IMG/VR virus record: IMGVR_UViG_3300033994_001782
Coordinates: 1-21,397 of that record
DNA length: 21,397 nt
Reading direction: 5' to 3' (one strand)
From: a virus
Below are positions 168 to 18,600 of the stretch, in pieces. The position numbers and the translations under genes were made by a program. The notes below the pieces were generated by a model, which was not told the DNA's origin, did no database searches, and was given only the letters and a program-made list of their open reading frames with translations. Numbering within the stretch: the first letter of the stretch is position 1; each line of letters opens with the position of its first letter.

Positions 168-175
168 TATTTATG
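168..175 (-). promoter_or_regulatory. Candidate T4-type late promoter upstream of gp15
   Basis: On the minus strand the octamer is CATAAATA, one base from the T4 late promoter TATAAATA. Its TAA is the stop codon of gp14. It ends 22 bases before the gp15 ATG. The same octamer occurs at two other gene boundaries here (2419-2426 and 12602-12609) and I saw it nowhere inside the genes. Assignment is by motif and position only. Confidence 0.5.
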
Positions 176-1556
176 GTGTTCCGAATGGATTAGTTTCTGA
201 GAAATCAAGAATCTCATCAGATGCAATTTCAATATTGTCATTGTCCGCATATGGATCTACAATATTGTCTCTATTAATCAATCTTACTTCATAAGAAGCG
301 CCTGACAAGGAACCGACAAGTACATCTCCATTAACAAAAGATCCAGTAATATTTGATACTTCTAATGTATTAGTAGTGGAATCCCATTTTCTTACAAGAC
401 CTTTTGTGCCACTAATACTACCAGTCACAGTTTCATTATATTGATAATCTCCCGATCCTGAAGAATATGGTGAAGAAATTGTAACAGTTGGAGTTTGTGT
501 ATATCCAAGTCCAGCATTAGTGATGTAGATTGCTGTTACTATTCCTGTAGGACTAATGTAAGCTTTACCAGTCGCAGTAACACCAGTTCCAGGACCACTG
601 AATGTAACTGTAGGTGGATTGGAATAACCACCTCCACCATTGGTAATGGTGATTGGACCAATTACACCATCACCGATTATTGTTGTTGCAGCAAATCCAG
701 CACCACCTCCACCAACAACAACTACAGAAGGTGGAACTGTATATCCACATCCAGGATTAATCAGTTCAATACCTTGAACTTTAAAATTTTCCGCAAGACC
801 GTTACAATCTATTAGATCTCCAATCAAAGTAGCAATTCCAACAGCCGTAGTTCCACCAACAGGTGCTGAAGAAAATGCCACTCTTGGTCTGGAAGTGTAT
901 CCATTACCTCTGTTGGAAATTTTTACAAATCTCACTCCACCTGTCGTGCAAATTCCACTGACAGTTGCAGAAGCTGTTACACCAGCACCTACTACAGTAA
1001 GAGTTTGGATATATCCTTCTCTTGAAACATTATCATCAATTTCATCTACTCCAGTATCAAGAACTTCATCTTCATATCTAAAGAGTTCACATCTCAGTTC
1101 ATAAACATAAGTTTTTTGGAGTTGATAAAAAGGTTTCTCATGTTCTACAAATTTAATTTCAAACAATCTATCTCCAAGAGGAAACCAAATTAAGTCTCCT
1201 TCTTTTGGTCTTGTAGATAGTTTTACATCTGGAAGATTTTTTATTAATGGAGAGATATAAGTTTCAAATCTTTCCTTTGATATAATTAAATTTAAATCAT
1301 TGAGTGGTTGAACGCCAAACTTTGATAGAATAGTTCCTTGACCCTCATATCCATCATAAGTATCCACATAAGCTTCTATTGGATATGCATTATCAAACTT
1401 TGATTCGATTACTTCTTTTATTACTGTCCTTTCAGTGACATATTTACGAGGCAAATAATAAACTTCTACTCCATACATACGGAGTTGTTCATTTACTAAA
1501 TTCTGAATCAATGATTGCTCTGATTTTGATCCCTGAAGAAAAAATGGATTTAACAT
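171..1556 (-). CDS. 14: gp14-like neck protein, enlarged by inserted repeat modules (461 aa)
   Basis: gp14 is part of the T4 neck, which with gp13 seals the DNA-filled head and gives the tail its docking site. Residues about 1-170 match the family: YGVEVYYLPRKYV, then DGYEGQGTILSKFGV, then RPKEGDLIWFPLGDRLFEI and PFYQL, each recognisable in T4 gp14. The short acidic end (SDEILDFSETNPFG) also resembles the T4 end. Between these lie about 235 extra residues: four Gly-rich GY...P units (about 192-369) and two 'G...G..SG' units (about 372-428). T4 gp14 is about 256 aa, so the extra length is the insert. I chose the ATG at 1556 (MLNPFFLQGS), one base after the gp13 stop (TGATATG). A TTG at 1565 would add three residues and overlap gp13, and is less likely. 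No Shine-Dalgarno is visible; translation is probably coupled to gp13. Confidence 0.9.
   Translation of the reverse strand: MLNPFFLQGSKSEQSLIQNLVNEQLRMYGVEVYYLPRKYVTERTVIKEVIESKFDNAYPIEAYVDTYDGYEGQGTILSKFGVQPLNDLNLIISKERFETYISPLIKNLPDVKLSTRPKEGDLIWFPLGDRLFEIKFVEHEKPFYQLQKTYVYELRCELFRYEDEVLDTGVDEIDDNVSREGYIQTLTVVGAGVTASATVSGICTTGGVRFVKISNRGNGYTSRPRVAFSSAPVGGTTAVGIATLIGDLIDCNGLAENFKVQGIELINPGCGYTVPPSVVVVGGGGAGFAATTIIGDGVIGPITITNGGGGYSNPPTVTFSGPGTGVTATGKAYISPTGIVTAIYITNAGLGYTQTPTVTISSPYSSGSGDYQYNETVTGSISGTKGLVRKWDSTTNTLEVSNITGSFVNGDVLVGSLSGASYEVRLINRDNIVDPYADNDNIEIASDEILDFSETNPFGTP
276..443 (-). repeat. Two 'G...G..SGA..V' modules inside gp14
   Basis: Two units in tandem: YNETVTGSISGTKGLV, a W-D-S-x-T-N-T-L-E-V link, then FVNGDVLVGSLSGASYEV. 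The pattern is roughly [Y/F]..GE.V.G..SGA.A.V followed by D..T..L.V. The same pattern occurs in the DUF4815 protein (8273-8445, 9455-9575), in gp8 (11370-11480) and in the giant protein (17457-17618). It looks like a short beta-hairpin or SH3-like unit; this is inference. Confidence 0.6.
450..983 (-). repeat. Four Gly-rich 'GxGY...P.V' units inside gp14
   Basis: The units are centred on NGYTSRPRVAF, CGYTVPPSVVV, GGYSNPPTVTF and LGYTQTPTVTI. The tyrosines are spaced about 52, 39 and 41 residues apart. Between them lie 'G..A.A.....G.V..I.ITN.G' links, so each unit is about 40 residues of alternating strand and glycine turn. This is not collagen: there is no Gly-X-Y triplet run. Similar units occur in gp8, the DUF4815 protein and the giant protein. 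Confidence 0.75.
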
Positions 1557-3188: not shown

Positions 3189-6100
3189 TTATGGTGTTGG
3201 TTTAATAGTTGCAATAGCTCTCAATTGTTTTACCATTGGAGGTGTTGCTTGGTTTTCCGATGCCATTACAATTTTGATAGAGAATGCATCAAACTCTGGA
3301 AGATCATCTACAGTGTATTCATAATCTTTAAATGATCTATCTGAAGTTTGATCTACTTTTCTATCAGAGGAACCATCATTAAGAGATTCGTCAATAATTC
3401 TTCTAATTCCCTGACCATCAACTCTATAATTTGAATATCCTGGGAACAATTCATAGTTTTGTGAAACTTCAGGAGCATCAGTTCTAAAAAGTCTGTAAAG
3501 AACTCTAATATCATTTTGTGTGTTTCTGCTAGCACTTAATAGAACCTTCAATGAATTTGCTGGAATTTTCAATCTTACTGGTTTTGAAATGTAGATCGTT
3601 GAGTGATCATCATCAAAAAGACTTCTAGTATTATCAGTAGTTGCATAATTTGCATTTTCGCCAATTCCATTTGGATTATTGACTAAGTTACTCGTCAAAA
3701 TAGTAGATGTCTTAATAGTATCAATAACTGGCGACACCAATGAATTCGTTGTTTCAAACACAAATTCCATAGTAAGAGACTTGGAACCTGGAGAATTTTG
3801 AATATTCCTCTCCTCATTTACTCTAGAACAAACAAGTCTTGGAGTAGGGAGATAGTTTATCTCACCAATTTCAATTGGTTGGAATCCAGAATCTGCGAAA
3901 GAATCTTCATTTCCACCAACACTAGTTCCAGTAAATGTTCTCAATCTACCATTCAAAGTAGTTCCTCCAGGAACAATATTGGCAAAAGTTGGGGTTATTG
4001 CTTCAAACTGTATATTACTGGTAATGTTAGTTCCGGATCTTCCTTTTTGGACAGTCTCTAAGAAATAAAGATCATTAGTTCTATCAACTCCAATACTAGT
4101 ACCCTCAAAATCAGTTGCACCCATTTCAATCTTAATGTGATAGCTGTTCAATTCTGTTGGATGAACTGTTTGATCAACTAAAGAAAGATTATGAACCTTG
4201 TTAATTCTTCTTAAGGAAATACCATTAAACTCATATTTTTCTACTGGTGATCCAGCTGGGTAAGTAAACTGAGAAACTTGAGTTCCATCAACTCCTCTTT
4301 GTGAGATTGTAAGAGTATTCGCAGCTACACTAGTATATTCAAAAACTTCATATCCAATCAAAGCATATCCAGGATTTAATGCACTTACTGGCAATCCTTC
4401 AAAAATCTCAAATCCAGTAGAATCATCAAGAGTTACTGACAATCCTCCTTGTTCTAATTCTGTAATTGTATCTGCAAAATCCCCATCAAAAGTAGGTCTC
4501 ATCTTAGATATTTGAACATAATTCTCTGGAGAATGCATTCCATGATTTGGTTGGTAAATCTTCATATGAAGACCAGTATTGTACTGATCAACATTGATAC
4601 TTGAAATTGTGACTGATGGTCCAACAACAGTTGTAATTCCTGAAGAATTAATATAAGAGATTGTTGTTAAACCGACAGAGAAAGTTCCCTGAACATTATC
4701 AATAACAAAAGTATTATTGGATGCAATGGATGTTACTTGGAACTGAGCTCCAAATCCACTATTAAGACTTGAACTCTCTGGAATTGAAAGTATATCACCT
4801 AAAACATAGTTATTTCCTCCATTTGTAATGGTAATCGTAGAGACTTGTTGATTTCCATCAATAATTAGAGTAGCTTCAGCGCCAAAACCAACACCAGTCT
4901 GAGTTTGTAATGCAACACCAGTATATGTTCCTGTACTATAACCAGTACCAACATTAGTGACGGAGGCTCCAGTTCCTATAGTAATACTTCCACCAATAGC
5001 AACTAATGTTCCTGTTGCAGATCCTTGAACCAAAGATGCTCCAGGAACTACATTAGTAGAATCAAAACCAGTAGATCCGAGACCTACAACAATTTTTCTA
5101 GAAAGAGGTAATAGTTGATTAGCTCCTGTAACAGCTACCTTTTTATTTGATAATGCAAGATCTGGATTAAAGAATCTTACAAGACCCTGATCTACAAAAT
5201 CTGCTCTATAAAGTTTGTATCTAAGATCTTCTAACTGAGCTGGAGACCAAGTTGATCCATTTTGAGATTTGAACAAACTTCCCAAAGTATACTGTTGAGA
5301 AACTTTAATTCCTGTGTAAATATCATTTTGTCCAAGTTCTGATATGAACACTCTATAATTTGGGCTTCCCGAGAGAAGAACCATAGCATACTCTGAGCTT
5401 TGTTGAGATCCAATAGGAGATTGTCTTGTCTGAATTTCTCTAGGTCCATTTAAGTAAACGGGAGATGGGAATCTAATCCTGGTTGGAATTGTTCCATCTG
5501 TAGATACATTTACTTGATCTGGTTCTAAAGTAACTTCGGAGAAGGGAACTGTCAAAGTGCTGGGAACGCCAGCAATCATTGGTCTGATTTGGAAAGTAAC
5601 TGGAATAGAATCATCTTTTGTTTCGAAGAAAATATCACAAGATGTTATGAAAATACCAGAATCTTCCCGAACATAGAATGATTGTGCAAGGGGATCCCAC
5701 AGTTCCCATTGACCACCACTACCAGGAACAAAATTAACATCAGAAGTTAATGTTGTTTTATTTGTGATGGTGGTTACATTTCTTACTCTTTCGGGAATAA
5801 TTGTAATATCTCTAGTTGTTGTAATTGTCAATTCTTCAACATTTATGATTCCTGATGATGAATATTCTGCTTGTGCTGAACTTTCATTGATTCTGGAGTT
5901 GGCAATAAATTCGTCAAATATTTGATCAAGATTGTTTAGATCTGGTGTATCAATAACAGTAAATGTATTTTGACCATTAGTCCATTTTGGATTTCCAATA
6001 ACTTTTGGATTTGGAATGAACAAGGATCCTAAAAGTCTTCCTGCACTATCTGAAACCAATCTTACTCTTGTAACTCTAGCGACCGCTCCTGAAGATGATC

Positions 6101-9100
6101 CAATAAGAGTCATCTCTGGTCTTACCAATCCAAAATATTCAGTTTCTGATGGCAACTGTAAAGCTCTAGTATCTACATTTAAGAAGGTAGATGACTCACT
6201 ATAATCATCTGGGATTGACTGCTGAGTATATGGATTTAATGTAAAAATATCTGGTTTAGAAACAAGAATTGGATCCTGAGGAAGAACTTCGCCTGTAGTA
6301 AAGTCTACAACAGGAACTGGATTTGTTATTGATGGTGGATTTGATCCATCAAATGGACCAGTTTTGTGATTGGGTTTACAAACTCTAAAAGATACTTTGG
6401 TTTCAGTATCAAAAGGACCACTAGTTACTGTTTCTCCTATTTCAAATTTGCCAGAAATCATTTCAATTTCAACTAGTTTTGGAACTACATAGTTGCTTAC
6501 ATCTATACCCTCAAAGAAAGGATAAAATCTTGTAACAGGTCTCAATCCTCTTACATCAAATTCAATATTTCTACTTCTAACAAATCTTACAGGCTCTGTA
6601 TAATTTGAAATTGAATTTGAAATTGTCTCTTCTGTTAATATTTCTGGTGGTATAATAACAGTTGATTGTGTAGTTTCTGTAGTTTCCTCAATATTATCTT
6701 CTACCGTAACAGTCCCCCTTGGATTAGAAAGATCAATATCGACTACCACAAATCCAGCAAAAGCGGGAACATTGTCTAATCTATTAAAGAAAGATCTTGC
6801 AGCATCTGGTGGAAGTATTCTACTTATAATATTTCTATCGTCTTGTGATACTTGACCATAATTAACTTCCAAACGTAATCTGTCTGTACCATCGTAAAAA
6901 CCAATTTCACCTTGCCTATTGCTGCCACCAGCAGCTCTACGTTGTAACCTATTATTATCCAAATTGACAGGAACCCCACCAATTGTTTTTACATCAGAAA
7001 GAATATTTCTTACAGTTTCAATCCAAATGTTTGGATCAACTCCAAACTGAGCATTTGCCTCATCTTGACTAACCCTTTCATCAACCACAACATTTTCAGT
7101 TACTGTTACATTTTCGTCTGGAAGAATTTGAGTAAATTCATTTACAACCATATTATTAACAGTTCTAAATTCTTCTTCAATCCAAGAATCAATTGGTGGA
7201 TTTAGTTGAATGATTCCTTCCCAATATCTAACCAAAAATGGAGTTACACTTTCTGTTTTTGTTGCATATGGTTGTTCATAATATAAGACTTCATTGTAAT
7301 CAAGGGTAATCAAATCTCCAGTTTTTCTAATTCCTGGAGATCCAAGATCGGTAACGTAACTCTGATCAACATTTGGTTTAAATGTCTGACCTACTCCCAA
7401 AATAGCTTCGGAACCAAGTTGTAAATCAATTAGTGTGGTGTAATTTCTTGGTCTAAGAGCCCCTTTACTTGTATCTATTGCAGATCTAAATGAACGATTT
7501 GTGACATCTTGATATTCTTGGCTCATAAAGTTATCAACAAAGAATCCACACTTGAACCTATCTAAACCAGTTTCAGCATCTTTGATGACTAAGTTTTCAG
7601 TCTTAGTCTCCAACATTGTAAGAGTAGTATACTTTTCAAGCCTTTGAATTCTATCTTCAAGTTTAGAGATATCTGACATTCGATATCTCTTATGAATACT
7701 CATATCCACTGCAACATTTTTTACGTTATATGTGTAAGGTGGAACATATATAGTTGCAATGTCCAAAGTATTTGATTTATTCTTTGGAATAATCGGAATA
7801 TTATCTGGTTCACCTTGAATAATCTCAAACAATCCATCAGTTCTTAGGATAACTTTATCAATTCTTCCAACATAATAAGTGTAATTTAATGTAATATTTT
7901 CTCCTGGAGCAAGAATATATTCTGAGTATTGGCCATCAACATCAAAGTTTCTTGAGTCAAACTCAAATGGAGATCTAGTTGATGAATTAAAAGAACCAAC
8001 TCTAGGCCTTATATCAACAAAATCAGTTAATCTTACATTCCCATAATAAGAAACATCATACTTAAAGTTTTCTTGGCTATAACTATTAACTGTTATAAAT
8101 TCTCCAGTGTCCGAAGGATCGATTGTATAGTTTTGGAATATAACTCTTAGTTTTCCTTTTGGTTCGGCAACGTTTCTTTTTCTTACAATTCTTGAATAAT
8201 CATAATATGTTGATCTTTGTCCATCATCAAGAGAATAATTATTGGAAATATTTTTGCTTCCTCTTAACTTAGAATTAACAACAGCTTGAGTGGATGATTC
8301 TTTACCAATAATAGCCTCACCAATACTAAAATTAAAAGTGTTTAGATTTACATATTCCAACTTATTGGAATCTACCTTATTAATTACAATAGCTACGGCA
8401 CCAGATGACTGTCCTTTTATTTGCTCTCCAACAATAAAATCAGCATTGCTGTTTGATGGTCCACTAAAACCACTTAGAGTTAAGTTTGGAAGAACAGGAT
8501 CCGAAATATCCTCAGATTCAAAAATAGCTAAAAATCTAACAGCGTCCGGAACACCAAGACTTATTTGTTTGTCCTGAACCCTTGTTCCATAGATTGGACT
8601 ATAAGTAAGTCCATCATTAAGAGTTGTGGATCCAATTCCGGAAGAAGTCAGTTTTGAATTAGAAATTATGACTGAGGAAGTTTTATTGAATTTCTTTGAC
8701 TTTGAACTTGCTCCTGTATTTTTTACTGTAGCAATAATTTCATAATTTCCCGAAGACTTGGAAAGATTTGAAAGTGTTACTGTTTTTCCTGTAGTTTCCA
8801 ATAAAAATTGATCACGTCTTAAAGGTTCATAATTTCCATCTGGATATGAGAGAACATATCTATCTTCATCAAATGATTCAAAGAAAATGTCAGTGTCTTC
8901 TGATGGAATTGTTACTGAAATTGTATTACTTGAGAAAGATCCCGTGAAAGTTCTTCTTTGAATTACTTCATTTTCAGCAAAATCTAAGGTGGCGATATTT
9001 TTATCACCAAGTCTTGTCATTAAAGACTTAGTTCCTGAAATATTAGATTCAATTTTTACAATATTTGTTACATTTTGATTGATGTTTGATAAAGCCCCAT

Positions 9101-11027
9101 TACAAACACCAGTTACTGTAGTAATACCCTGAACCTCAAAGAAAGTTCCACCAAGACTCACATTAGTTACTTTATTGTAAATTGGGTCACTTCCAAATGA
9201 AGAGTATGAAATAATATCTCCCGGTTTTATCAATTTTACAAAATTCTTATCTAATCCCGCAGAAACAGTGCTAATTCCACTACTAGAAGCGGTTATATTA
9301 AAAGTTGATCCCGGACTTGCAATGTATGATTTTTTACTTAATAATAAGTCAGCATTAAATGTAGATATTCCTGTTTGAGAATATATTGATTTAATATCTC
9401 TGATTGAGTAGTCTGTTACAGAGTTAATCAATCGAGAATCGTCAATTCCATTTATAGAAATGGGCTCGTTTTCTAAAAATTTACCACTAACTTGATATAA
9501 TGTTAAAGAATCTACTCCTGCATCAGTATTTGATACTAAATATCCCGAAGCATTACTTCTCTTTCCTTCAATAAAGGCTGGAGTTGATAGTGTACTTGTA
9601 AATGAGGTTGTTAACCCAATAGTGGTATAAGTTTGAATATCAAACAATCTTAATTCAAACCTACTTGTATTATCAACATAACTAGTCTCTGGAATAAAGT
9701 CATAGACTCTAGCGTATCCAATTGTTGTTCCAGCTGCGATATAAGCATCGGAACCAATTCTAGAATCCATCAAACTGACCACGGAATCAGTTCCCAATCC
9801 TGGATTTACTGATCCATAAACATTATTAACGATGCACAAAGATCCTGAATTGTAAGATACTGACTGAGTATCTGATTTTTTGGTTGTTCTTGCTTTCGGA
9901 ACATCCAATAAGGTTGCAGCTATAGTTTCAACATCAAATCCTTGAACATATGCTTTTCCTGGTCCAATTTCATAGACCATTAAATCTTCTGATGGAATAT
10001 TTCCTTGAGCTGTTCTTTGATTCTCAAAAAACATCCCATCAGAAAGAGTTTTATCGTTTAAAGAATCTCTTACAAAAAGTGTAAATGGTTTTACGAAATA
10101 ATCTCCAGATTCATCATAAGTTCTTCTAGCTAATTGTTCTCTTAAAATATTATACTGTGGGTTTTCATCAAAAAACTGAGGAATACCTCCTTGAACTCTT
10201 AAAATTTCAACAAAAGAATCAGTTTGATTATCATCAATTTCTTTCTTCGATAATACCAGTTCCAACTTAAATCTGTCCGCACCAGGAGCTGCATAATTAG
10301 AGAATCCCTGAGCATTGTCAAAAAGTGTTGGATCTTCATAAGCATTTACAATACTTTCCAGAACATCAAATCCAACCTTATATGAAGGATTAATGCCATA
10401 TTGATCTAACAAAATAGTCTGTTCACCAACTCTAGCAAAAGTTCCTCTTACAAAGTAAATACCAGGAGCTACAGAAACTGCTGAACCTTCAGCAGTTGCA
10501 TTCTGTGCAAGTGTGTTTGCAAATCCTTGTCCAGCTTGTATTGTTGACTGTCCATAAGTTACAGGAGTTTCCAATAAAAGAGTTTCACCATCACTAAAAA
10601 TCTTTACATCAAAATCTTCACCTCCACTTTGAAGATATTTAATATAAAGAGTATAGTTACCTCTTTCAGAATCAGTGTTAGTTAAAAGATATACTACTTC
10701 AGCAGTTACTCCACTACTTTGTCCTCTAATTTTTGATCCTAAAAGCTGATCAAAATATAATGAAATAGGAGCTCCATTATAGACAGGTTCAATTTGAATA
10801 GCATATAATGGTGATTCATATTTTAATTGCCCAGGAATTACAACAGATCCCTCTTTAAAAATATGAGTACCAAATCTTTCAATCTGAGTTTGATTGATTG
10901 ACTGAATTGTATTCAGTTCTCTAGCCTGGATCGGATATCCCGGTTTAAAAAGAACTTTATAATAATCTTTTTGGGGATCAAAATCGTCAAAGTATGGTGA
11001 GACGTTGAGATTAGTTTCCTGTGGCAT
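3189..11027 (-). CDS. DUF4815-type giant virion structural protein (2612 aa), probably baseplate periphery or fibre
   Basis: The N-terminus (MPQETNLNVSPYFDDF, then FKPGYPIQARELNTIQSI and FGTHIFKEGSVVIPG) is the characteristic start of DUF4815 proteins in marine T4-like phages. A coiled coil follows at about residues 1119-1147 (LEDRIQRLEKYTTLTMLETK). The conserved core includes DPLAQSFYVREDSGIFITS (about 1770) and GSLFKSQNGSTWSPAQLEDL (about 1911-1930). The C-terminus (FSIKIVMASENQATPP) is also typical. Inserted modules include GE...SGA units (about 860-920 and elsewhere), a Gly-rich GY block (about 2014-2080) and an RG..GT module (about 2195-2270). The family is structural; its exact place in the virion is not established here. 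It occupies the position of T4 genes 9-12, which suggests a baseplate-edge or fibre-connecting role (inference). It starts six bases after the gp8 stop with a weak AAAGAA Shine-Dalgarno and runs unbroken for 7.8 kb. Confidence 0.85.
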   Translation of the reverse strand: MPQETNLNVSPYFDDFDPQKDYYKVLFKPGYPIQARELNTIQSINQTQIERFGTHIFKEGSVVIPGQLKYESPLYAIQIEPVYNGAPISLYFDQLLGSKIRGQSSGVTAEVVYLLTNTDSERGNYTLYIKYLQSGGEDFDVKIFSDGETLLLETPVTYGQSTIQAGQGFANTLAQNATAEGSAVSVAPGIYFVRGTFARVGEQTILLDQYGINPSYKVGFDVLESIVNAYEDPTLFDNAQGFSNYAAPGADRFKLELVLSKKEIDDNQTDSFVEILRVQGGIPQFFDENPQYNILREQLARRTYDESGDYFVKPFTLFVRDSLNDKTLSDGMFFENQRTAQGNIPSEDLMVYEIGPGKAYVQGFDVETIAATLLDVPKARTTKKSDTQSVSYNSGSLCIVNNVYGSVNPGLGTDSVVSLMDSRIGSDAYIAAGTTIGYARVYDFIPETSYVDNTSRFELRLFDIQTYTTIGLTTSFTSTLSTPAFIEGKRSNASGYLVSNTDAGVDSLTLYQVSGKFLENEPISINGIDDSRLINSVTDYSIRDIKSIYSQTGISTFNADLLLSKKSYIASPGSTFNITASSSGISTVSAGLDKNFVKLIKPGDIISYSSFGSDPIYNKVTNVSLGGTFFEVQGITTVTGVCNGALSNINQNVTNIVKIESNISGTKSLMTRLGDKNIATLDFAENEVIQRRTFTGSFSSNTISVTIPSEDTDIFFESFDEDRYVLSYPDGNYEPLRRDQFLLETTGKTVTLSNLSKSSGNYEIIATVKNTGASSKSKKFNKTSSVIISNSKLTSSGIGSTTLNDGLTYSPIYGTRVQDKQISLGVPDAVRFLAIFESEDISDPVLPNLTLSGFSGPSNSNADFIVGEQIKGQSSGAVAIVINKVDSNKLEYVNLNTFNFSIGEAIIGKESSTQAVVNSKLRGSKNISNNYSLDDGQRSTYYDYSRIVRKRNVAEPKGKLRVIFQNYTIDPSDTGEFITVNSYSQENFKYDVSYYGNVRLTDFVDIRPRVGSFNSSTRSPFEFDSRNFDVDGQYSEYILAPGENITLNYTYYVGRIDKVILRTDGLFEIIQGEPDNIPIIPKNKSNTLDIATIYVPPYTYNVKNVAVDMSIHKRYRMSDISKLEDRIQRLEKYTTLTMLETKTENLVIKDAETGLDRFKCGFFVDNFMSQEYQDVTNRSFRSAIDTSKGALRPRNYTTLIDLQLGSEAILGVGQTFKPNVDQSYVTDLGSPGIRKTGDLITLDYNEVLYYEQPYATKTESVTPFLVRYWEGIIQLNPPIDSWIEEEFRTVNNMVVNEFTQILPDENVTVTENVVVDERVSQDEANAQFGVDPNIWIETVRNILSDVKTIGGVPVNLDNNRLQRRAAGGSNRQGEIGFYDGTDRLRLEVNYGQVSQDDRNIISRILPPDAARSFFNRLDNVPAFAGFVVVDIDLSNPRGTVTVEDNIEETTETTQSTVIIPPEILTEETISNSISNYTEPVRFVRSRNIEFDVRGLRPVTRFYPFFEGIDVSNYVVPKLVEIEMISGKFEIGETVTSGPFDTETKVSFRVCKPNHKTGPFDGSNPPSITNPVPVVDFTTGEVLPQDPILVSKPDIFTLNPYTQQSIPDDYSESSTFLNVDTRALQLPSETEYFGLVRPEMTLIGSSSGAVARVTRVRLVSDSAGRLLGSLFIPNPKVIGNPKWTNGQNTFTVIDTPDLNNLDQIFDEFIANSRINESSAQAEYSSSGIINVEELTITTTRDITIIPERVRNVTTITNKTTLTSDVNFVPGSGGQWELWDPLAQSFYVREDSGIFITSCDIFFETKDDSIPVTFQIRPMIAGVPSTLTVPFSEVTLEPDQVNVSTDGTIPTRIRFPSPVYLNGPREIQTRQSPIGSQQSSEYAMVLLSGSPNYRVFISELGQNDIYTGIKVSQQYTLGSLFKSQNGSTWSPAQLEDLRYKLYRADFVDQGLVRFFNPDLALSNKKVAVTGANQLLPLSRKIVVGLGSTGFDSTNVVPGASLVQGSATGTLVAIGGSITIGTGASVTNVGTGYSTGTYTGVALQTQTGVGFGAEATLIIDGNQQVSTITITNGGNNYVLGDILSIPESSSLNSGFGAQFQVTSIASNNTFVIDNVQGTFSVGLTTISYINSSGITTVVGPSVTISSINVDQYNTGLHMKIYQPNHGMHSPENYVQISKMRPTFDGDFADTITELEQGGLSVTLDDSTGFEIFEGLPVSALNPGYALIGYEVFEYTSVAANTLTISQRGVDGTQVSQFTYPAGSPVEKYEFNGISLRRINKVHNLSLVDQTVHPTELNSYHIKIEMGATDFEGTSIGVDRTNDLYFLETVQKGRSGTNITSNIQFEAITPTFANIVPGGTTLNGRLRTFTGTSVGGNEDSFADSGFQPIEIGEINYLPTPRLVCSRVNEERNIQNSPGSKSLTMEFVFETTNSLVSPVIDTIKTSTILTSNLVNNPNGIGENANYATTDNTRSLFDDDHSTIYISKPVRLKIPANSLKVLLSASRNTQNDIRVLYRLFRTDAPEVSQNYELFPGYSNYRVDGQGIRRIIDESLNDGSSDRKVDQTSDRSFKDYEYTVDDLPEFDAFSIKIVMASENQATPPMVKQLRAIATIKPTP
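4205..4445 (-). other. 'IG.E...Y.SV..NTLTI..RG..GT...INKVH' module in the DUF4815 protein
   Basis: Visible landmarks are GYALIGYEVFEYTSVAANTL, ISQRGVDGTQ, VEKYEF and ISLRRINKVHNL. A recognisably related module is in the neighbouring giant protein (15105-15350), with IKIGNEIMRINSV, VQRPWMGTGIS and DNIINFVH. This 'value, type, RG..GT' pattern is common in phage virion proteins; its function is unknown. Confidence 0.55.
4780..4985 (-). repeat. Gly-rich GY repeat block in the DUF4815 protein
   Basis: Two consecutive units, VTNVGTGYSTGTYTGVALQT and ITITNGGNNYVLGDILSIPE, joined by a GFGAEATL....Q.VS link. They match the units in gp14 and the giant protein in the order Gly-Tyr turn, strand, 'G..A.A' strand, 'V..ITI.N.G'. 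Confidence 0.65.
8273..8445 (-). repeat. Tandem GE...G..SGA modules in the DUF4815 protein
   Basis: Two units in tandem: FIVGEQIKGQSSGAVAIV, then a K..SNKLEYVNL link, then FSIGEAIIGKESSTQAVV. Single related units occur in the same protein at about 6010-6120 (LIGSSSGAVARV), 9455-9575 (IEGKRSNASGYLV) and 10685-10745 (IRGQSSGVTAEV). Confidence 0.6.
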
Positions 11028-11033
11028 AATTCT

Positions 11034-12584
11034 TTAGAATTGCAAAATGACTTTGATATCTTCTTTTTGATTAGATGATCTGGTTATCGAAGGTCTATTA
11101 TCGACGTAAATGATATTTCCAGAATATTTTTTAACTTCTGGATTAGACACACCAGATTCGAAGGATTGACCCAAGTAGTATGTTCTATTATTTATTACTG
11201 TTGATATACCTGTGAAGTTTGTATCAATAGATAAAGAGCTTGCTGTTCCTACGATTGCCGTAGTTCCACCTGTACTAATATTGGAAGTAAATCTATTGAG
11301 ACTGAATCCATAAGTTGGATTTGTTTTAGCAGTTCCATCTGTATTAAATCCAACAAGAGATTTATCTTGCCAATATTTCAAGACACCCGTATTTTGATCA
11401 TAAGAAATTACTCTACCAACAGCTGTAGATCCTACACCGATTGTTTGAATAATTTGACTGTCTGTGGGGAAAAATGCTGATTGAAAATTACCGGATAATT
11501 TTATTGCACCAACTGCACTTGCTTTATCTAAAGTTAAAATTGAAGATGAGTTGTATGCTTCTGGATTTTCTACAATTCCAACTCTTGCAATTTGATTTCC
11601 AGTGATAAAATCTGGGTTTTCTATATCATTCTCAATTCTAGAATAAACAATTACGTTATACGCACCAAGTTCTCTATAGATATCAGCTCCGTGACCACCT
11701 TGAGGAGGAATAATAACATCAAATGATGGAGATATAGAACCAGAAGGCACATTACCATCAACAATATCTACAGTTCCATAAGTATATCCCGATCCCCCTT
11801 TAGAAATTGTTACTGACTCGACTTTTGAATCGTTATTAATTGTGATCGTACATTCAGCTCCAGTACCATCACCTTTAATAGGAACTCTTGTATAAGTTTG
11901 ATTAGCAGTTCCAAGACCAACACCACGATTAGTTATCGTTACAATCTTCAACTGTCCACTGGTAGATGAATTATTTCTAACAGCAGCATTTTCTGTACTT
12001 GTTTCCCAGTTTTTAGGAACAGGAATAAAATTAACAGAATCAAACTTAATGATATCACTTGGTTTAATAGTATAGAGATATTTCCAAATATAACCATCAC
12101 CACTACTTCCAGCAGATCTTGGTTCTAAGTCAACAAAAGTAGGTTCATCTAGTGATGGTCTACCTTCTGGATTTTCGGGTGAAGTTCCATTATTCAGACA
12201 AATGTAAACTCTGAAATCACTATTGATCACATAATAATTTGCGGAATATAAACTAGTTGATCCAGAAGGTCTGGAAGTTCTATTTCTACTGATATCATGA
12301 CGATACATATCATAAGTAATTCCAGACTGCCAAGTGACCTTACGGACAACTTGCTTTACATCGTCTTCTCCAATTTTTTTGAGAGCAATCATTGTGTCCC
12401 AATAATCATTCTCTTGATCAAAATTGTCTATCGGGGCAGGAGGGAGTACATCCCAAGTTGGAGAAAAATCTGTTGCATTAGGAAGAGCCACAAAGGAATA
12501 ATAAGAATTCTCAGAAGAAGTTGCCGCAGAGACAAAGTTCTTAGCATTTAGTATTCTTAATTGGTCAGTTATAATTGCAGACAT
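11034..12584 (-). CDS. 8: gp8-like baseplate wedge protein with two inserted segments (516 aa)
   Basis: T4 gp8 is a baseplate wedge subunit of about 334 aa. Matching landmarks here are FRVYICLNNGTSPENP, then EPGDGYVWEYLF-like GSSGDGYIWKYLYTIKPSD (residues about 160-177), then ARVGIVENPEAYN (about 333-345). The C-terminus KYSGNIIYVDNRPSI...EDIKVILQF parallels the T4 end (HSGEMIYMENRPPI...). Against T4 there are two extra segments. The first, at about 205-285, is Gly-rich (GDGTGAECTITIN, KGGSGYTYG). The second, at about 346-475, includes a GVGSTAVGRVISYDQNTGVL unit of the SGA type. The start MSAIITDQLRILNAKNFV is typical of marine relatives. It follows the giant gene by 20 bases containing a late-promoter-like octamer and precedes the DUF4815 gene by six. 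The assignment rests on motif matches recalled from T4, strongest at the C-terminus, and on gene order. Confidence 0.85.
   Translation of the reverse strand: MSAIITDQLRILNAKNFVSAATSSENSYYSFVALPNATDFSPTWDVLPPAPIDNFDQENDYWDTMIALKKIGEDDVKQVVRKVTWQSGITYDMYRHDISRNRTSRPSGSTSLYSANYYVINSDFRVYICLNNGTSPENPEGRPSLDEPTFVDLEPRSAGSSGDGYIWKYLYTIKPSDIIKFDSVNFIPVPKNWETSTENAAVRNNSSTSGQLKIVTITNRGVGLGTANQTYTRVPIKGDGTGAECTITINNDSKVESVTISKGGSGYTYGTVDIVDGNVPSGSISPSFDVIIPPQGGHGADIYRELGAYNVIVYSRIENDIENPDFITGNQIARVGIVENPEAYNSSSILTLDKASAVGAIKLSGNFQSAFFPTDSQIIQTIGVGSTAVGRVISYDQNTGVLKYWQDKSLVGFNTDGTAKTNPTYGFSLNRFTSNISTGGTTAIVGTASSLSIDTNFTGISTVINNRTYYLGQSFESGVSNPEVKKYSGNIIYVDNRPSITRSSNQKEDIKVILQF
11370..11552 (-). repeat. 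SGA-type module inside gp8
   Basis: The segment contains the strand pair SQIIQTIGVGSTAVGRVI, followed by a D-Q-N-T-G-V-L-K-Y link. This is the same order as the gp14 and DUF4815 modules. It interrupts the stretch between the 'VENPEAY' and 'KYSGNIIYVDNRP' landmarks, which lie close together in T4 gp8. Confidence 0.5.
11748..11960 (-). repeat. Gly-rich GY repeat block inside gp8
   Basis: About 70 residues with LKIVTITNRGVGLG, GDGTGAECTITIN and VTISKGGSGYTYG. This is the same strand-and-turn order as the repeat units of gp14. It follows the conserved GDGYIWKYLY region of gp8. Confidence 0.6.
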
Positions 12585-12601: not shown

Positions 12602-12609
12602 TATTTATG
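12602..12609 (-). promoter_or_regulatory. Candidate T4-type late promoter upstream of gp8
   Basis: The minus-strand octamer CATAAATA overlaps the TAA stop of the giant gene and lies 17 bases before the gp8 ATG. No good Shine-Dalgarno lies in between, so a transcript from here would have a very short leader. It is one base from the T4 late promoter consensus and identical to the sites at 2419-2426 and 168-175. Confidence 0.45.
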
Positions 12610-15600
12610 AAACGTAATTGCGGTATTTGAGTGGATTATACCTTTGAACAGTAGGTGAAGTCGATACTCCAATCAATCCATTATTGTAGGAATTGAATTC
12701 TTTACCATCAATTCTTATAAAATCATGAATTCTTCCCCAACTATACTCACCATAGAAAGAACTATATCCAATACCGGACAACCCATTATAATCATCAACC
12801 CGTACTGTTACTTTTGCGACATAAGTTAAACCAATACCTAAGACATCAGTTTGTCCGATAGAAACAGATGCAACTTCATATACGTTATCAATAAATGTAG
12901 AACCAATACTTAGAGTAGCTCCACTTGGATAAATTGAAGTTAATCCATTTCCAACATTAGAGTTGAAGACTACGAAGTAATAACCAGTCTGTATTCCACT
13001 AATACCCGTAGTTGCAATTCCCACATTATTAATTGCGGTGTCTCTTAAGAATGAATTTTGTGGAATAAAGAGATCAAACACAACTCCATTAAAACCAAAT
13101 CCAACTGTAGTTTGGGCAATTCCCGTGATTACTCCAAAATCACCATCATAAGAAACAGTATCAATGACCTCTCTAGTAACTTCGGGAGAAGATATGAGAA
13201 CAATAGGTGGATTTGTGGTTGTATATCCAGTTCCTGGGTTAATAATACTTATCGAAGAAACTGTTCCACCAACAGATATTGTTGATGTTGCAGATGCTCT
13301 TTGAGTGGTTCCAAGTCCTACAGGATTTTCAATGATTACAACAGGATTTGTTGAATAACCAACTCCACCATCAGAAATAATAATCGATGATATAGTTCCT
13401 GCAACTGAAACAACAGCAGTAGCTGCAGCTGCAACTAAATGATCTTGTGAAGTAATTACAATCTTTTTCTGAGGTATCTCAGTTGTTCCATCTTGTAAAT
13501 ATTCATCAGCACTATCAAAGAATGTTTTAACACTCTCCACAAAGATTTGAGTTGATCCTACACTTACACTTTGAATAATATTTGATGTTGGATTGATCAA
13601 TGGTTCATAAAGAATTCTATCCTTAGAAATTTTCTGACCATTAATAATCTTATCTTCAGTTTGCCTGCACCAAATTACAGGTCTTGATAAAGTTTCATCT
13701 TGAGTGATTCCTGGACCAGGATAAACATTAGTTTCAGCAACATCTGTAGATATGATATCGGTTACAAGTCTAGAATTTTCTTTTAGACTTCCAATATCAC
13801 TATTAATTCTTAAAGTATCACCCTCTTTTACAGTTTCCAGTATATCAACATTTACAGTATCAACAGATCCAGTTCCTCTATAGAATAGAATCTTCGAGAA
13901 GTCTCCTTCTTTTGGTGCCTCATTAAATGTTATAATACTTCCACCATTGAAGGTATAAGAAGCATCAGGAACCTGTAAAACATCATTAATGAATATTAAA
14001 AGATTTGATTTTACTTCAATATTAGAACCCTTTTTAGCTCTAATAGTTGTCTGTTCACCATTAATCTTAATCGGGAAAGTCTTTCTTTGACCATCGAAAA
14101 GAGAATCTATCGGATCAATAACTTGAAGATCTCCAACAGTCCATCCAGTAAATTCATCTGTAAAGGTTCTATCCACAGAAATTTGGAATTCATTAAATGG
14201 TAATGAAGTATCTGTTGGAATTCCAGTTGTTCCACCAATTGCAACTGTTAGAATTTCACCTTGACCATATCCATAACCAGTGTTTCTAATTTCAAAAGAA
14301 ATTACACTGGATCCCTGTCCAACCACAATATCAGCGACCGCACCAGTTCCAATTCCACTAGAAACAGAACTATAAATCAGAGGAATATTTGAATAAGAAA
14401 GAGGATCATCAAAAATAACAATTGGAGGATTTGTAGAAGTATAACCAGTTCCTGGATTTGTGATTGCGATCCCAGTTACATGGCCATCGACTATGATTGC
14501 AGTTCCGACATATGTGATGTTTGGAGTTGCAGTACTAGACGTTGCTACTCCAACATTTACGGTTTGGATACCAGATCTATAACCAGATCCACTATTTCCA
14601 ATACTAATCTGTGAGATTGTTCCTGCAATAGAGACTGTTGCAGTTCCTCCTGCAGATACTAGAGGTTGATATCCAAAACCAGCAGTTGATCCAACAGAAA
14701 CTATTACTCCACCAAGAGGGATATTGCTGGTATTAATATCATATGAAGATGAAGTTGCAGTTCCAGTAAATGTTATTGAAGTAATTCCAGTGTTTTCTGA
14801 GAGATCATAGTCTCCTACAATTTGAACAGATCCAGGTCTTGATGGTCCTTGGAAAATATCATTGATTAGAACAATTGCATTACTTGTTGAGAATCCTGCA
14901 ATATTAGATCCATTGGATTTTAAAGTAAATGTATTATTAGTTCCGTTAAAGCCCGAGGAAATGTCATCGAAAATGTAATTGTATGAGTAAGGCTCAGAGT
15001 CGCCATTTACAAATCCAGACCTAATGAATGATCTTCCAGTAAAAGTAGAACGAGTTTCAATGCCAACAAAATCCCTACTATCTGGTGGATTGGTTACAGA
15101 TCCAATTGGAGTTAATCCATATGGAGCATGTACAAAATTAATAATATTATCTACGATGTTATAATCACCCTTAACTTTTGTTACTAAAGAGTGAGCTGGG
15201 TGAGTTGATATTCCCGTACCCATCCATGGTCTTTGAACTAATACCTTATTAGTTCCACCAATTCCAACTGAATTGATTCTCATAATCTCATTACCAATCT
15301 TTATCAAATCTCCACCAAAGAAAGATGTAATTCCAGATAAAGTGATTATACTATCAAAAATACCAATAGAACTTGATGCTTTGGATGTTATTGCAGTTGC
15401 AACAATTGGAGATTGAATTAAATTGTCAATTCCTATAATAACTCTTGAATTTTGATTAGTTGAAACAAATCTATGAGAAGTTCCAATTCCAACATGAGTA
15501 ATATCTAATACATTAGGTGGATTTCTAAGAGCATCTGAGGCAGAAGCAGCAACTCTAACGTTAAAATCATTACTCTTAACGATGTAAACCGAAGATGGTA

Positions 15601-18600
15601 ATTTATCAGTCGAACCTATTCCAGTAATATTTGTCGTTGCAATTCCAATAGCTGAAGTTGTTCCCGCTCCAGCGTAAGAATATAGTACTTTTTCACCAGT
15701 TACAAAGAAATTCTCTGGTATTGTAATTGTATTGTTAGTAATATCGACGATATCAGAATCACCACCATCAAAATATCTTTCAAAAATTGGTTTATTTTTG
15801 TGAGTTAAATTAAACTCTCTTCTAATATCAGTTTCAGCTCCTATATAGAAACCATATCCTGTTCTAATAAAAGCGTTTGTAAAATCGATAGTTCTATCAG
15901 GAATTTCTGAGTCAACTAAACCAATTGAATTCTGGTAAACTCTAACTTCAACATCAGTATCTGCATTCGCAGTGAATGTTAAATCTACAGTACCTGAAGG
16001 TCTTACGGTTGCACCTATGGATCCAATCGATGATCCAGTTTGCATGATTCCAAATTCCACAACGTAAGCATCAATATCGTCATCAACAACAACAACTTCA
16101 GAAACTTGATATTGATTATTTGTCAAGTCCTCAATACTTACGATATAATAAGATCCTTCATATGTTGAAGAATAAGATGATATTGTGGTAATTCCTGGGG
16201 TTGGAGTTGATGATATTGAAACATAACTTGATTCGATTCGTGAATTGTTGAATATTTCTGTACCCACTCCAACAGAGTCTGTACTTGATATTGATACTCT
16301 AACAGAATTCACATTAAATTGAACAGGAGTTGTATCATATGGAATTAGATCAATATTAATATTTGATCCAGAGTAGTATGCGTGATAGGTTCCAACCCCC
16401 AAAGATGAATATGGGTACAAATTAGCAGTATTGAGTTGGCCATAATCTTGAATCATAATGTCTGTTCCATCATGAAGTAATGTAATCTCATCAAACTCAT
16501 TATATGAAGAATCAGTAGCTCCAATTTGAACTAGGACTTTGGAAGATCTATAAGTTGATGCAATTCCAACAATAGTTGTTGCTGATGAAGTACCTGATGG
16601 AATAACGGTAGTTGCGGATCCTACAAAAACGGAATCTCCAAGATCTGTCGATCCAATAGAAACTATTGTGTCTCTAATATCAATAGAGATAGTATTGACA
16701 TCATAGTCATTAATAGCAGATTTGGTTGGATAGAAGAGAAGATTACCTTCTGATCCACTTATATTAAAATCAAAAGATCCTAAATTATCATAGCTGCTGC
16801 TATCTCCATATTGGTTGACATATCCATTAGAACCATCATGAATAAGAGAAACTAAAGATACTTGAACTTCGGATGTAAATCTTCTATCTTTGATAAATGT
16901 TAAGAATTTAAGAGATCTTGAATCTAGTCCAAAAGTATCAACAATACTAAATCTAGTGAATCTAGGATTGCTGTTAAATTCATCACTAATATCATCTATC
17001 AAAAGAACTCTGTTACCAACAGATTCAATATAATCCTGAAGAACTCTCGTTCCAAAAATTATTTCATCTGACTTAACATTTTCATCAATAGTAAAATTAT
17101 TTTCAGTTACTAAATCAAAATCATTGACGCAATTTAAGTCAATAAATGTGGAAAAGTCAGCTACACCAGTGACATCTCCAAAATTTTGATCGGTGTTAAT
17201 GCCAGATATAGTGGGAGAAGACTCTATGACCAAATCACTAAATTTCTTGAATCCTGCAGTATGGTTGAGATTATTTACTGGATTTTTCCAAGTGTCAAAA
17301 GGAATCTGTGATCTGAGGGAATATGAGAAATATTGATAGTAGTCATTATCAGGAACTCTTTGGAATTGGTTATCTAAGAAACCTGTTTCCTTTTTCCAAC
17401 CCTTTACTACTGTAGATCCTGATCCAACAACATAAGTTGCTTTAGTCTCAACCGCGTTTGAAATTAATCCTCTAGAAGTAGAAGTTCTACCAGTGATTAC
17501 ATTTCCAGAAGTAAAGGTATCAGAAGTTGAAACTTTTAAAGTTTCAGTAATTTCATTCCAATCTACAACAATTCCAACAGCATCATTTGCAAATACCTCT
17601 TCTCCCTTATTAAATGTGTTCTTTTCTAGGGAAATATCAAATATTGGGAAATGTTTTTGTGGTATAATTCTTCCCGAAGAAATTACTGGATTGAAAGTTC
17701 CAGGAACTTCTCCATCAATTAAATAATTTGATAAGTTATATGATACAGTAGCTCCAACACCACCAATATTGGGATCAGTATTGACTATTGTGAATAGTGT
17801 ATAGTTGTAACTTGAAGAGTTATAACCTCTTGCAGTTGTTGCAATACCGACACTTGTATTTTCTATAAGAACTTTATCTCCAATATTAAATGGGAAATCT
17901 TCTGGATCACTAAAACTGGATCCTAAAGTAACAACAACATCTTTGGAAGATGGGATAAATTGGATTGAACTAATACTAATTCCGTTACTATTATTTACTG
18001 GAATAATAGTCGGTGTTACATTGTTGATTGACTTTGTATTCTTAAGAACATCAACAGTTCTATCCTCAAGATTATATCTTAGATCAATATCGGATACTAT
18101 ATTATTTGTCAGACCATCTATAAGAATTAAATCAGGAGCTACTGAATAATTTCTTCCAACAGAAGATACTCCAATTGACTTGATTGATGATTGGGGAACA
18201 ATCTTCAATTTGTCTGGTAATTTTGATGTAGGTCTTAATGAATAATCACTAGAGTAATTAAACCCAATATCATCTATACTTGTTTTTAAAACTTTTCCAA
18301 TGTTATTTGTAGATACTTCTAAAATTTCACCGGATCCAAAATCTGATGTTATGCTATCAACTTCCGGTAAAGATGACAAATTAAGTCCTTCATAATTTAT
18401 CTTTATTGAATTAATTTCACCAAATGCATTTAATGAATTTGTAGTATATGAGATAGTTGAATTTGAAGAATCGTAGTCAAGTTTTTCTGGAGTTTCTGGT
18501 AAGATATATGTAAACGTGTTTGAAGTTACCTCATACACAGACTGTGATCCACTATAAAAACTTGGAACAATATCAATGGTGTTATAATTAACAACTTCAT

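Follow-up and report, generated by a model that had tools for sequence, protein, structure and literature searches.

Phage neck proteins seal the pressurised head and dock the tail, and they are hence expected to be constrained. In T4, gp14 forms a hexamer beneath the gp13 dodecamer, and its arm (residues 178-256) lacks order until the tail attaches, when it comes into contact with gp15; the gp13 tunnel is 44-56 Å wide, and residues 190-239 of gp13 bind fibritin (PMC12270204). The window analysed here is a stretch of 21,397 nucleotides, the whole of positions 1 to 21,397 of the IMG/VR virus record IMGVR_UViG_3300033994_001782. Its gp14 shares with T4 gp14 (PF11649; PDB 9lu4-9lu7 and 9mkb) the fold and sequence of the core, the 13-14 gene order and an arm that follows the barrel; however, T4 gp14 has a plain arm and a length of 256 aa, whereas the window gp14 carries in the arm a beta module of about 250 residues that is predicted to fold. 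The family profile PHROG 460, of 385 positions, already includes part of the insert, but it is annotated as head closure only, and its name and length miss the module and its size range. The gp14 proteins of S-SM2, P-SSM2, S-SM1, S-CAM9, S-SSM7 and Sf-FS3 share the core, the tail and the slot with the window protein and differ in the load that the slot carries. The fibritin whiskers of T4, the neck fibres of A-1(L) and the Milano collar possibly occupy the same site around the neck as the insert; however, all three are separate proteins on the upper neck ring or the sheath, whereas the insert lies within a protein of the lower ring. The insert-bearing proteins have carried the gp14 annotation for a long time, and no description of the insert was found in the openly licensed literature searched; PMC3037559 makes no mention of gp14, wac, whisker or neck.

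The window gp14 and its inserted module

The gp14 gene is read on the minus strand from an ATG at position 1556 to a stop codon at 171-173, and its features are collected in Table 1. Residues 2-176 match PF11649 (T4_neck-protein) in Pfam (1.7e-30, 106.7 bits, cut-off 25), residues 2-167 align with residues 27-182 of T4 gp14 (3.7e-25), and phrog_460 (head closure Hc2), the best family, covers residues 2-328. In structure comparison, residues 28-162 of the moderately modelled core match the T4 gp14 chain 9lu6_M (Z 9.7, rmsd 4.6, 113 residues aligned), and the core also resembles other head-closure proteins, more weakly. The C-terminal end carries LDFSETNPFG, which is conserved across the marine group, and this C-terminal tail would correspond to the arm with which T4 gp14 binds gp15. 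The initial annotation had placed conserved T4 regions at both ends of the protein; the matches to PF11649 and T4 gp14 bear this out for the N-terminal end, but at the C-terminal end the likeness comes down to a short motif, judged by eye, in which the T4 end ...FESSPFD resembles the marine one. The gp13 gene lies directly upstream of gp14, the same adjacency as in the T4 gp14 family. A 128-aa gene on the minus strand at 2425-2808, before gp13 and where T4 has wac, matches phrog_1084, of unknown function, and phrog_3304, annotated for L-shaped tail fibre assembly.

Table 1. Features of the window gp14 and of related genes in the window
Feature	Position	Strand	Basis
gp14 (head-closure Hc2 / neck protein), 461 aa + stop codon	171..1556	minus	phrog_460 5.7e-132
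Conserved gp14 core, residues 1-176, including stopper beta-barrel	1029..1556	minus	PF11649; 9lu6_M match
Flexible linker, residues 162-180	1017..1073	minus	pLDDT ~45 in full-length model
Inserted all-beta module (predicted), residues 181-428	273..1016	minus	pLDDT 95.2, pTM 0.87 folded alone
GY unit 1, residues 205-244	825..944	minus	profile matches
GY unit 2, residues 259-296	669..782	minus	profile matches
GY unit 3, residues 297-336	549..668	minus	profile matches
GY unit 4, residues 337-372	441..548	minus	profile matches
Two SGA half-units, residues 373-428	273..440	minus	SGA profile 87.5 bits
C-terminal tail, residues 431-461, ending NPFGTP	174..266	minus	motif kept in 459/462 gp14s
gp13 (head-tail adaptor Ad2), 279 aa	1558..2397	minus	phrog_211 4.2e-48
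Three other long GY/SGA genes	12608-21397, 3189-11027, 11034-12584	minus	profile matches

The insert extends from about residue 177/181 to residue 430, and the window gp14 exceeds T4 gp14 by a net 205 residues. A large insert, first put at about 235 residues, is confirmed at a size of about 250, and its proposed make-up of four GY and two SGA units is likewise borne out. Profiles made for single GY units recognised the other units at 6.9-31.5 bits, with at least 10 bits in 11 of the 12 cross-comparisons and the lowest score for the GY3 profile on GY2 (6.9 bits); 200 shuffled inserts reached at best 7.9 bits against the GY profiles, and a chance origin of the repeats was rejected on this comparison. 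We interpret the SGA half-units as the latter portion of a beta-barrel interrupted by the GY units, an interpretation that draws on the barrel-only S-SM1 homologue and on a weak match of the insert to translation-factor barrels (aIF2 gamma domain III-like; best Z 5.9, 68-76 residues aligned). In those alignments the first and last aligned residues fall at opposite ends of the insert, as would fit a barrel divided by the GY units, but the score is too low to exclude a commonplace arrangement and too weak for such a barrel to be claimed.

A full-length AlphaFold2 model, built on an alignment of 81 sequences (A1), had a mean pLDDT of 79.3, with values mostly of 84-97 in the insert (residues 181-428), of about 50-65 in the tail (431-461) and, in ten-residue blocks, of 42-81 in the core, which is moderate only. 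When residues 178-434 were modelled alone by AlphaFold (alignment A3), an all-beta fold was predicted with the high scores given in Table 1, and a disordered insert is ruled out by this result. The models predict an autonomous folded domain on flexible tethers. A Foldseek search of the PDB with the insert-alone model returned no match at E <= 0.001, which does not imply that the fold is new. Furthermore, the window insert gave no match in Pfam, to LamG or to any other family, PF11649 being the only family matched by the whole gp14 at E up to 1, and nothing therefore indicates ligand binding by the window insert. Matches of the full-length model in a viral structure library included neck proteins, large virion proteins and many unnamed entries. 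Among them, BFVD A0A5S9C1A0 (Tenacibaculum phage PTm1, 619 aa) and A0A8S5LER9 (Myoviridae sp. ctBDS4, 590 aa) are enlarged neck/head-closure proteins; these two fold matches suggest that other phage groups may also have an enlarged head-closure protein.

Size classes and nested architecture among T4-like phages

In tblastn searches, the core was matched in 2357 phage records and the insert in 129, all of the latter named Synechococcus, Prochlorococcus, cyanophage or marine virus. Loci were collected from six scans of viral contigs and from named phages, giving 487 including the window, 486 of them with the core; 24 cut short at contig ends and the one without a core were dropped, leaving 462 full-length gp14s (374 distinct sequences) from T4-like phages, nearly all on marine contigs. 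These gp14s measured 252-1109 aa, with none, two or four GY units, or as many as 10. The queries were chosen by architecture, with the short set coming mainly from an insert-less query, so the counts that follow are not natural frequencies: GY units were found in 0/80 gp14s shorter than 320 aa, two in each of 83 at 320-420 aa, four in each of 239 at 420-500 aa, and 4-10 in the 60 longer than 500 aa (seven at 500-600 aa, eight at 600-700 aa, 37 at 700-800 aa and eight above 800 aa). A match to the SGA profile was present in all 382 GY-bearing gp14s and in none of the 80 short ones, and the C-terminal motif was kept in 459 of the 462, the exceptions being T4 and two loci that end in NPFADF. When profiles of insert-bearing and insert-less gp14s were aligned, the alignment spanned the core only. 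The core and the tail are kept while the occupant between them varies, and the insert thus behaves as a modular slot.

The comparison of gp14 lengths across marine T4-like phages called for in the initial annotation yielded stepwise GY classes. The same annotation had named, as a result that would count against it, an insert shared by most marine homologues and buried in the neck ring; most of those sampled do share the insert, at varying length, but nothing shows burial. An insert peculiar to the window phage was rejected on the 129 tblastn records and on the 382 of 462 gp14s with GY units. A strict host rule, in which the insert would mark a cyanobacterial host, was rejected as well, because S-SM1, P-SSM7, P-RSM6 and S-WAM1 have no GY units; the GY part is thus not required on cyanobacterial hosts.

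Architecture was compared in 20 gp14s, those of the window and of 19 named phages including T4. Neither GY nor SGA units were matched in T4 (256 aa), Melnitz (287 aa), HTVC008M (290 aa) and Mosig (272 aa), and an SGA match without GY units was found in S-SM1 and P-SSM7 (308 aa) and in P-RSM6 and S-WAM1 (291 aa). Two GY units were counted in S-RIM2, S-RIM8 and S-RSM4, four in P-SSM2, S-SM2, S-SKS1 and the window, eight in S-CAM9, and six together with a LamG region in Sf-FS3 and S-SSM7. ACG-2014f (L496, 492 aa) and S-CAM7 (L497, 487 aa) have two recognised GY units, a divergent C-terminal end and a long insert. The LamG family PF13385 was matched by Sf-FS3 gp14 in Pfam (E 2.9e-7, 31.2 bits, cut-off 27.6) and by 9 of 20 gp14s scanned as a set; the region lies inside the GY array of the Sf-FS3 sequence and is 48.8% identical in S-SSM7 by tblastn. 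This concanavalin-like LamG is placed at residues 322-448 of Sf-FS3 gp14 (L085), in a lineage that includes S-SSM7 and contigs L407-L444. Inspection by eye had raised the possibility of a LamG-like stretch in L247 and L218, which entered alignment A4 in part only, but Pfam did not confirm it.

Closely related pairs reveal how these parts are arranged. The cores of S-SM1 (308 aa) and contig L166 (388 aa) are 97.7% identical, and L166 has an additional GY pair of 80 residues; the SGA stretch is continuous in S-SM1, the GY residues of L166 fall within that stretch, and the GY array thus interrupts the SGA domain. Similarly, L238 and L197 have 94.9% core identity and differ by 191 residues in the GY array. 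Nesting is shown by these sequences; the order of the steps in time is inferred. In a core tree built with quick IQ-TREE (138 rows), in which long branches were flagged, the six architecture classes needed 13 changes, against a minimum of 5. The LamG class formed a single group with 99% support, with S-SSM7 labelled by its tblastn match and the contigs because they belong to the Sf-FS3 group. In alignment A1, identity to the window averaged 0.71 for the core, 0.49 for the insert and 0.57 for the tail. Among 107 pairs with 98-99% identical cores, which are not independent of one another, median identity was 94.1% in the insert and 97.2% in the tail, and five pairs differed by at least 20 residues in length. 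The insert evolves more quickly than the core, and relaxed constraint also fits this pattern. Altogether, these data place the window gp14 in a known family with a real, confidently folded and modular insert that is widespread and probably exposed.

Placement on the neck and competing explanations

The insert starts where the arm of T4 gp14 starts and ends before the conserved tail, and it should therefore exit the ring at the level of gp14 and gp15. Six copies with up to >800 extra residues cannot fit the channel through which DNA passes, and differences of 80 or 191 residues between near-identical cores make an essential buried layer implausible; such a range of slot sizes around a constant core is hard to square with burial, which makes outward projection the likeliest arrangement. 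The proposal that the insert should project outward thus agrees with an independent module, flexible linkers and a variable slot, and we infer from these that it likely does so near the gp14-gp15 junction.

The explanation that we consider probable is that of a T4-type head-closure protein in whose C-terminal arm a slot for exposed, outward-facing beta modules has arisen, flanked by the stopper barrel on one side and the tail-binding end on the other; these modules would form a surface collar or appendage. The modules are nested, with a small SGA domain, GY repeats within that domain and, in one lineage, LamG in the array. The six inserts would leave the neck as a ring of short appendages in which the GY repeats may serve as a rigid spacer, its length adjusted by whole units. 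The module could make weak contacts with the tail fibres, the top of the sheath or the cell surface, and it would be dispensable for head sealing. The insert may serve as a collar, in adhesion or as a passive module.

A somewhat doubtful alternative is a built-in collar, in which the module wraps the gp14-gp15 junction together with the top sheath ring and reinforces them with no free projection. The slot does sit in the arm that orders on gp15 in T4 (PMC12270204), and the Milano neck is described in PMC10491603 as covered by separate collar proteins. The lengths of gp15 and gp14 are correlated as well (Spearman 0.57 across 415 loci, uncorrected for kinship), with gp15 exceeding 330 aa in 151/415 loci, many of them insert-bearing; the insert could thus contact gp15 instead of projecting freely. 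However, the longest gp14s (1021-1109 aa) accompany a short gp15 (273 aa), and length changes by whole repeats between near-identical cores argue against a tight layer, which should be more constrained. In gp15 of the S-CAM9 type (e.g. L170), about 75 residues are inserted close to the C-terminus relative to the P-SSM2 gp15 in L088, and a profile search found GY or SGA units in 0/422 gp15s. This second ring protein of the neck-tail junction (tail terminator / sheath stabiliser) seems to have gained a module of its own.

Passive mosaicism, in which a promiscuous repeat shared by virion genes spreads and grows within a loop that tolerates it, without a function selected for at the neck, is unlikely. 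GY and SGA profiles also match window genes of at least 2930 aa, 516 aa (a gp8-like baseplate wedge) and at least 2612 aa, several of these matches being weak, and by family match the three genes belong with baseplate-wedge or virion proteins or with an uncharacterised family. GY units were found in 7/8 whole records scanned, the window record included, and at no place in T4. GY and SGA units are thus a shared set of building blocks for virion proteins in these phages, and gp14 has taken from it. This occurrence in other long genes of the same genomes and the repeated change of copy number on the core tree are both expected from passive expansion; however, the four-unit form is kept in 239/462 loci, and the insert has a confidently predicted fold and keeps 13 positions invariant in 81 sequences.

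The initial annotation had also suggested that the insert may act in place of T4 whiskers. In pairwise alignment with T4 gp13 (309 aa), the window gp13 has no counterpart of the fibritin-binding segment 190-239. Fibritin_C (PF07921) was detected in T4 and in 0/7 other phage records of the same scan, Melnitz among them, and in 0/8 further records in a scan that had no positive control of its own, hence in 0/15 non-T4 records in all. There are 1427 phage records matched by T4 wac; their ten commonest organism words, the tenth of which accounts for 28 records, do not include Synechococcus. A 2010 review (PMC2984593) already records the absence of wac from cyanomyoviruses; it also refers to an unpublished isolate from St Kilda that has whiskers. 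Among 410 loci with a full gp13, however, its length was 267-288 aa in every gp14 class but the short one, and there the median was 271 aa and the maximum, that of T4, 309 aa. Whisker loss does not track insert gain, because insert-less relatives of the Melnitz type also have a short gp13 and Melnitz itself has no Fibritin_C. With whisker fibres being a separate trimeric protein and the insert a domain of a ring protein, a functional replacement is highly improbable, and the suggestion is left unsupported.

With outward-facing modules as the preferred reading, a further and rather doubtful proposal is that, in marine T4-like phages, the lower neck ring forms a variable, exposed platform with six beta-repeat gp14 arms, bearing a lectin-like domain in some lineages, that touch envelope glycans or hold tail fibres, with their reach tuned by GY number and independently of the receptor-binding machinery of the baseplate. 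Despite the constraint expected of neck proteins, a single protein of the ring spans lengths of 252 to 1109 aa in related phages while its core and tail stay the same, and intermediate forms that still exist suggest in what way the additions were nested. If the module projects, very abundant ocean phages would have, in the neck, a variable surface that has been overlooked.
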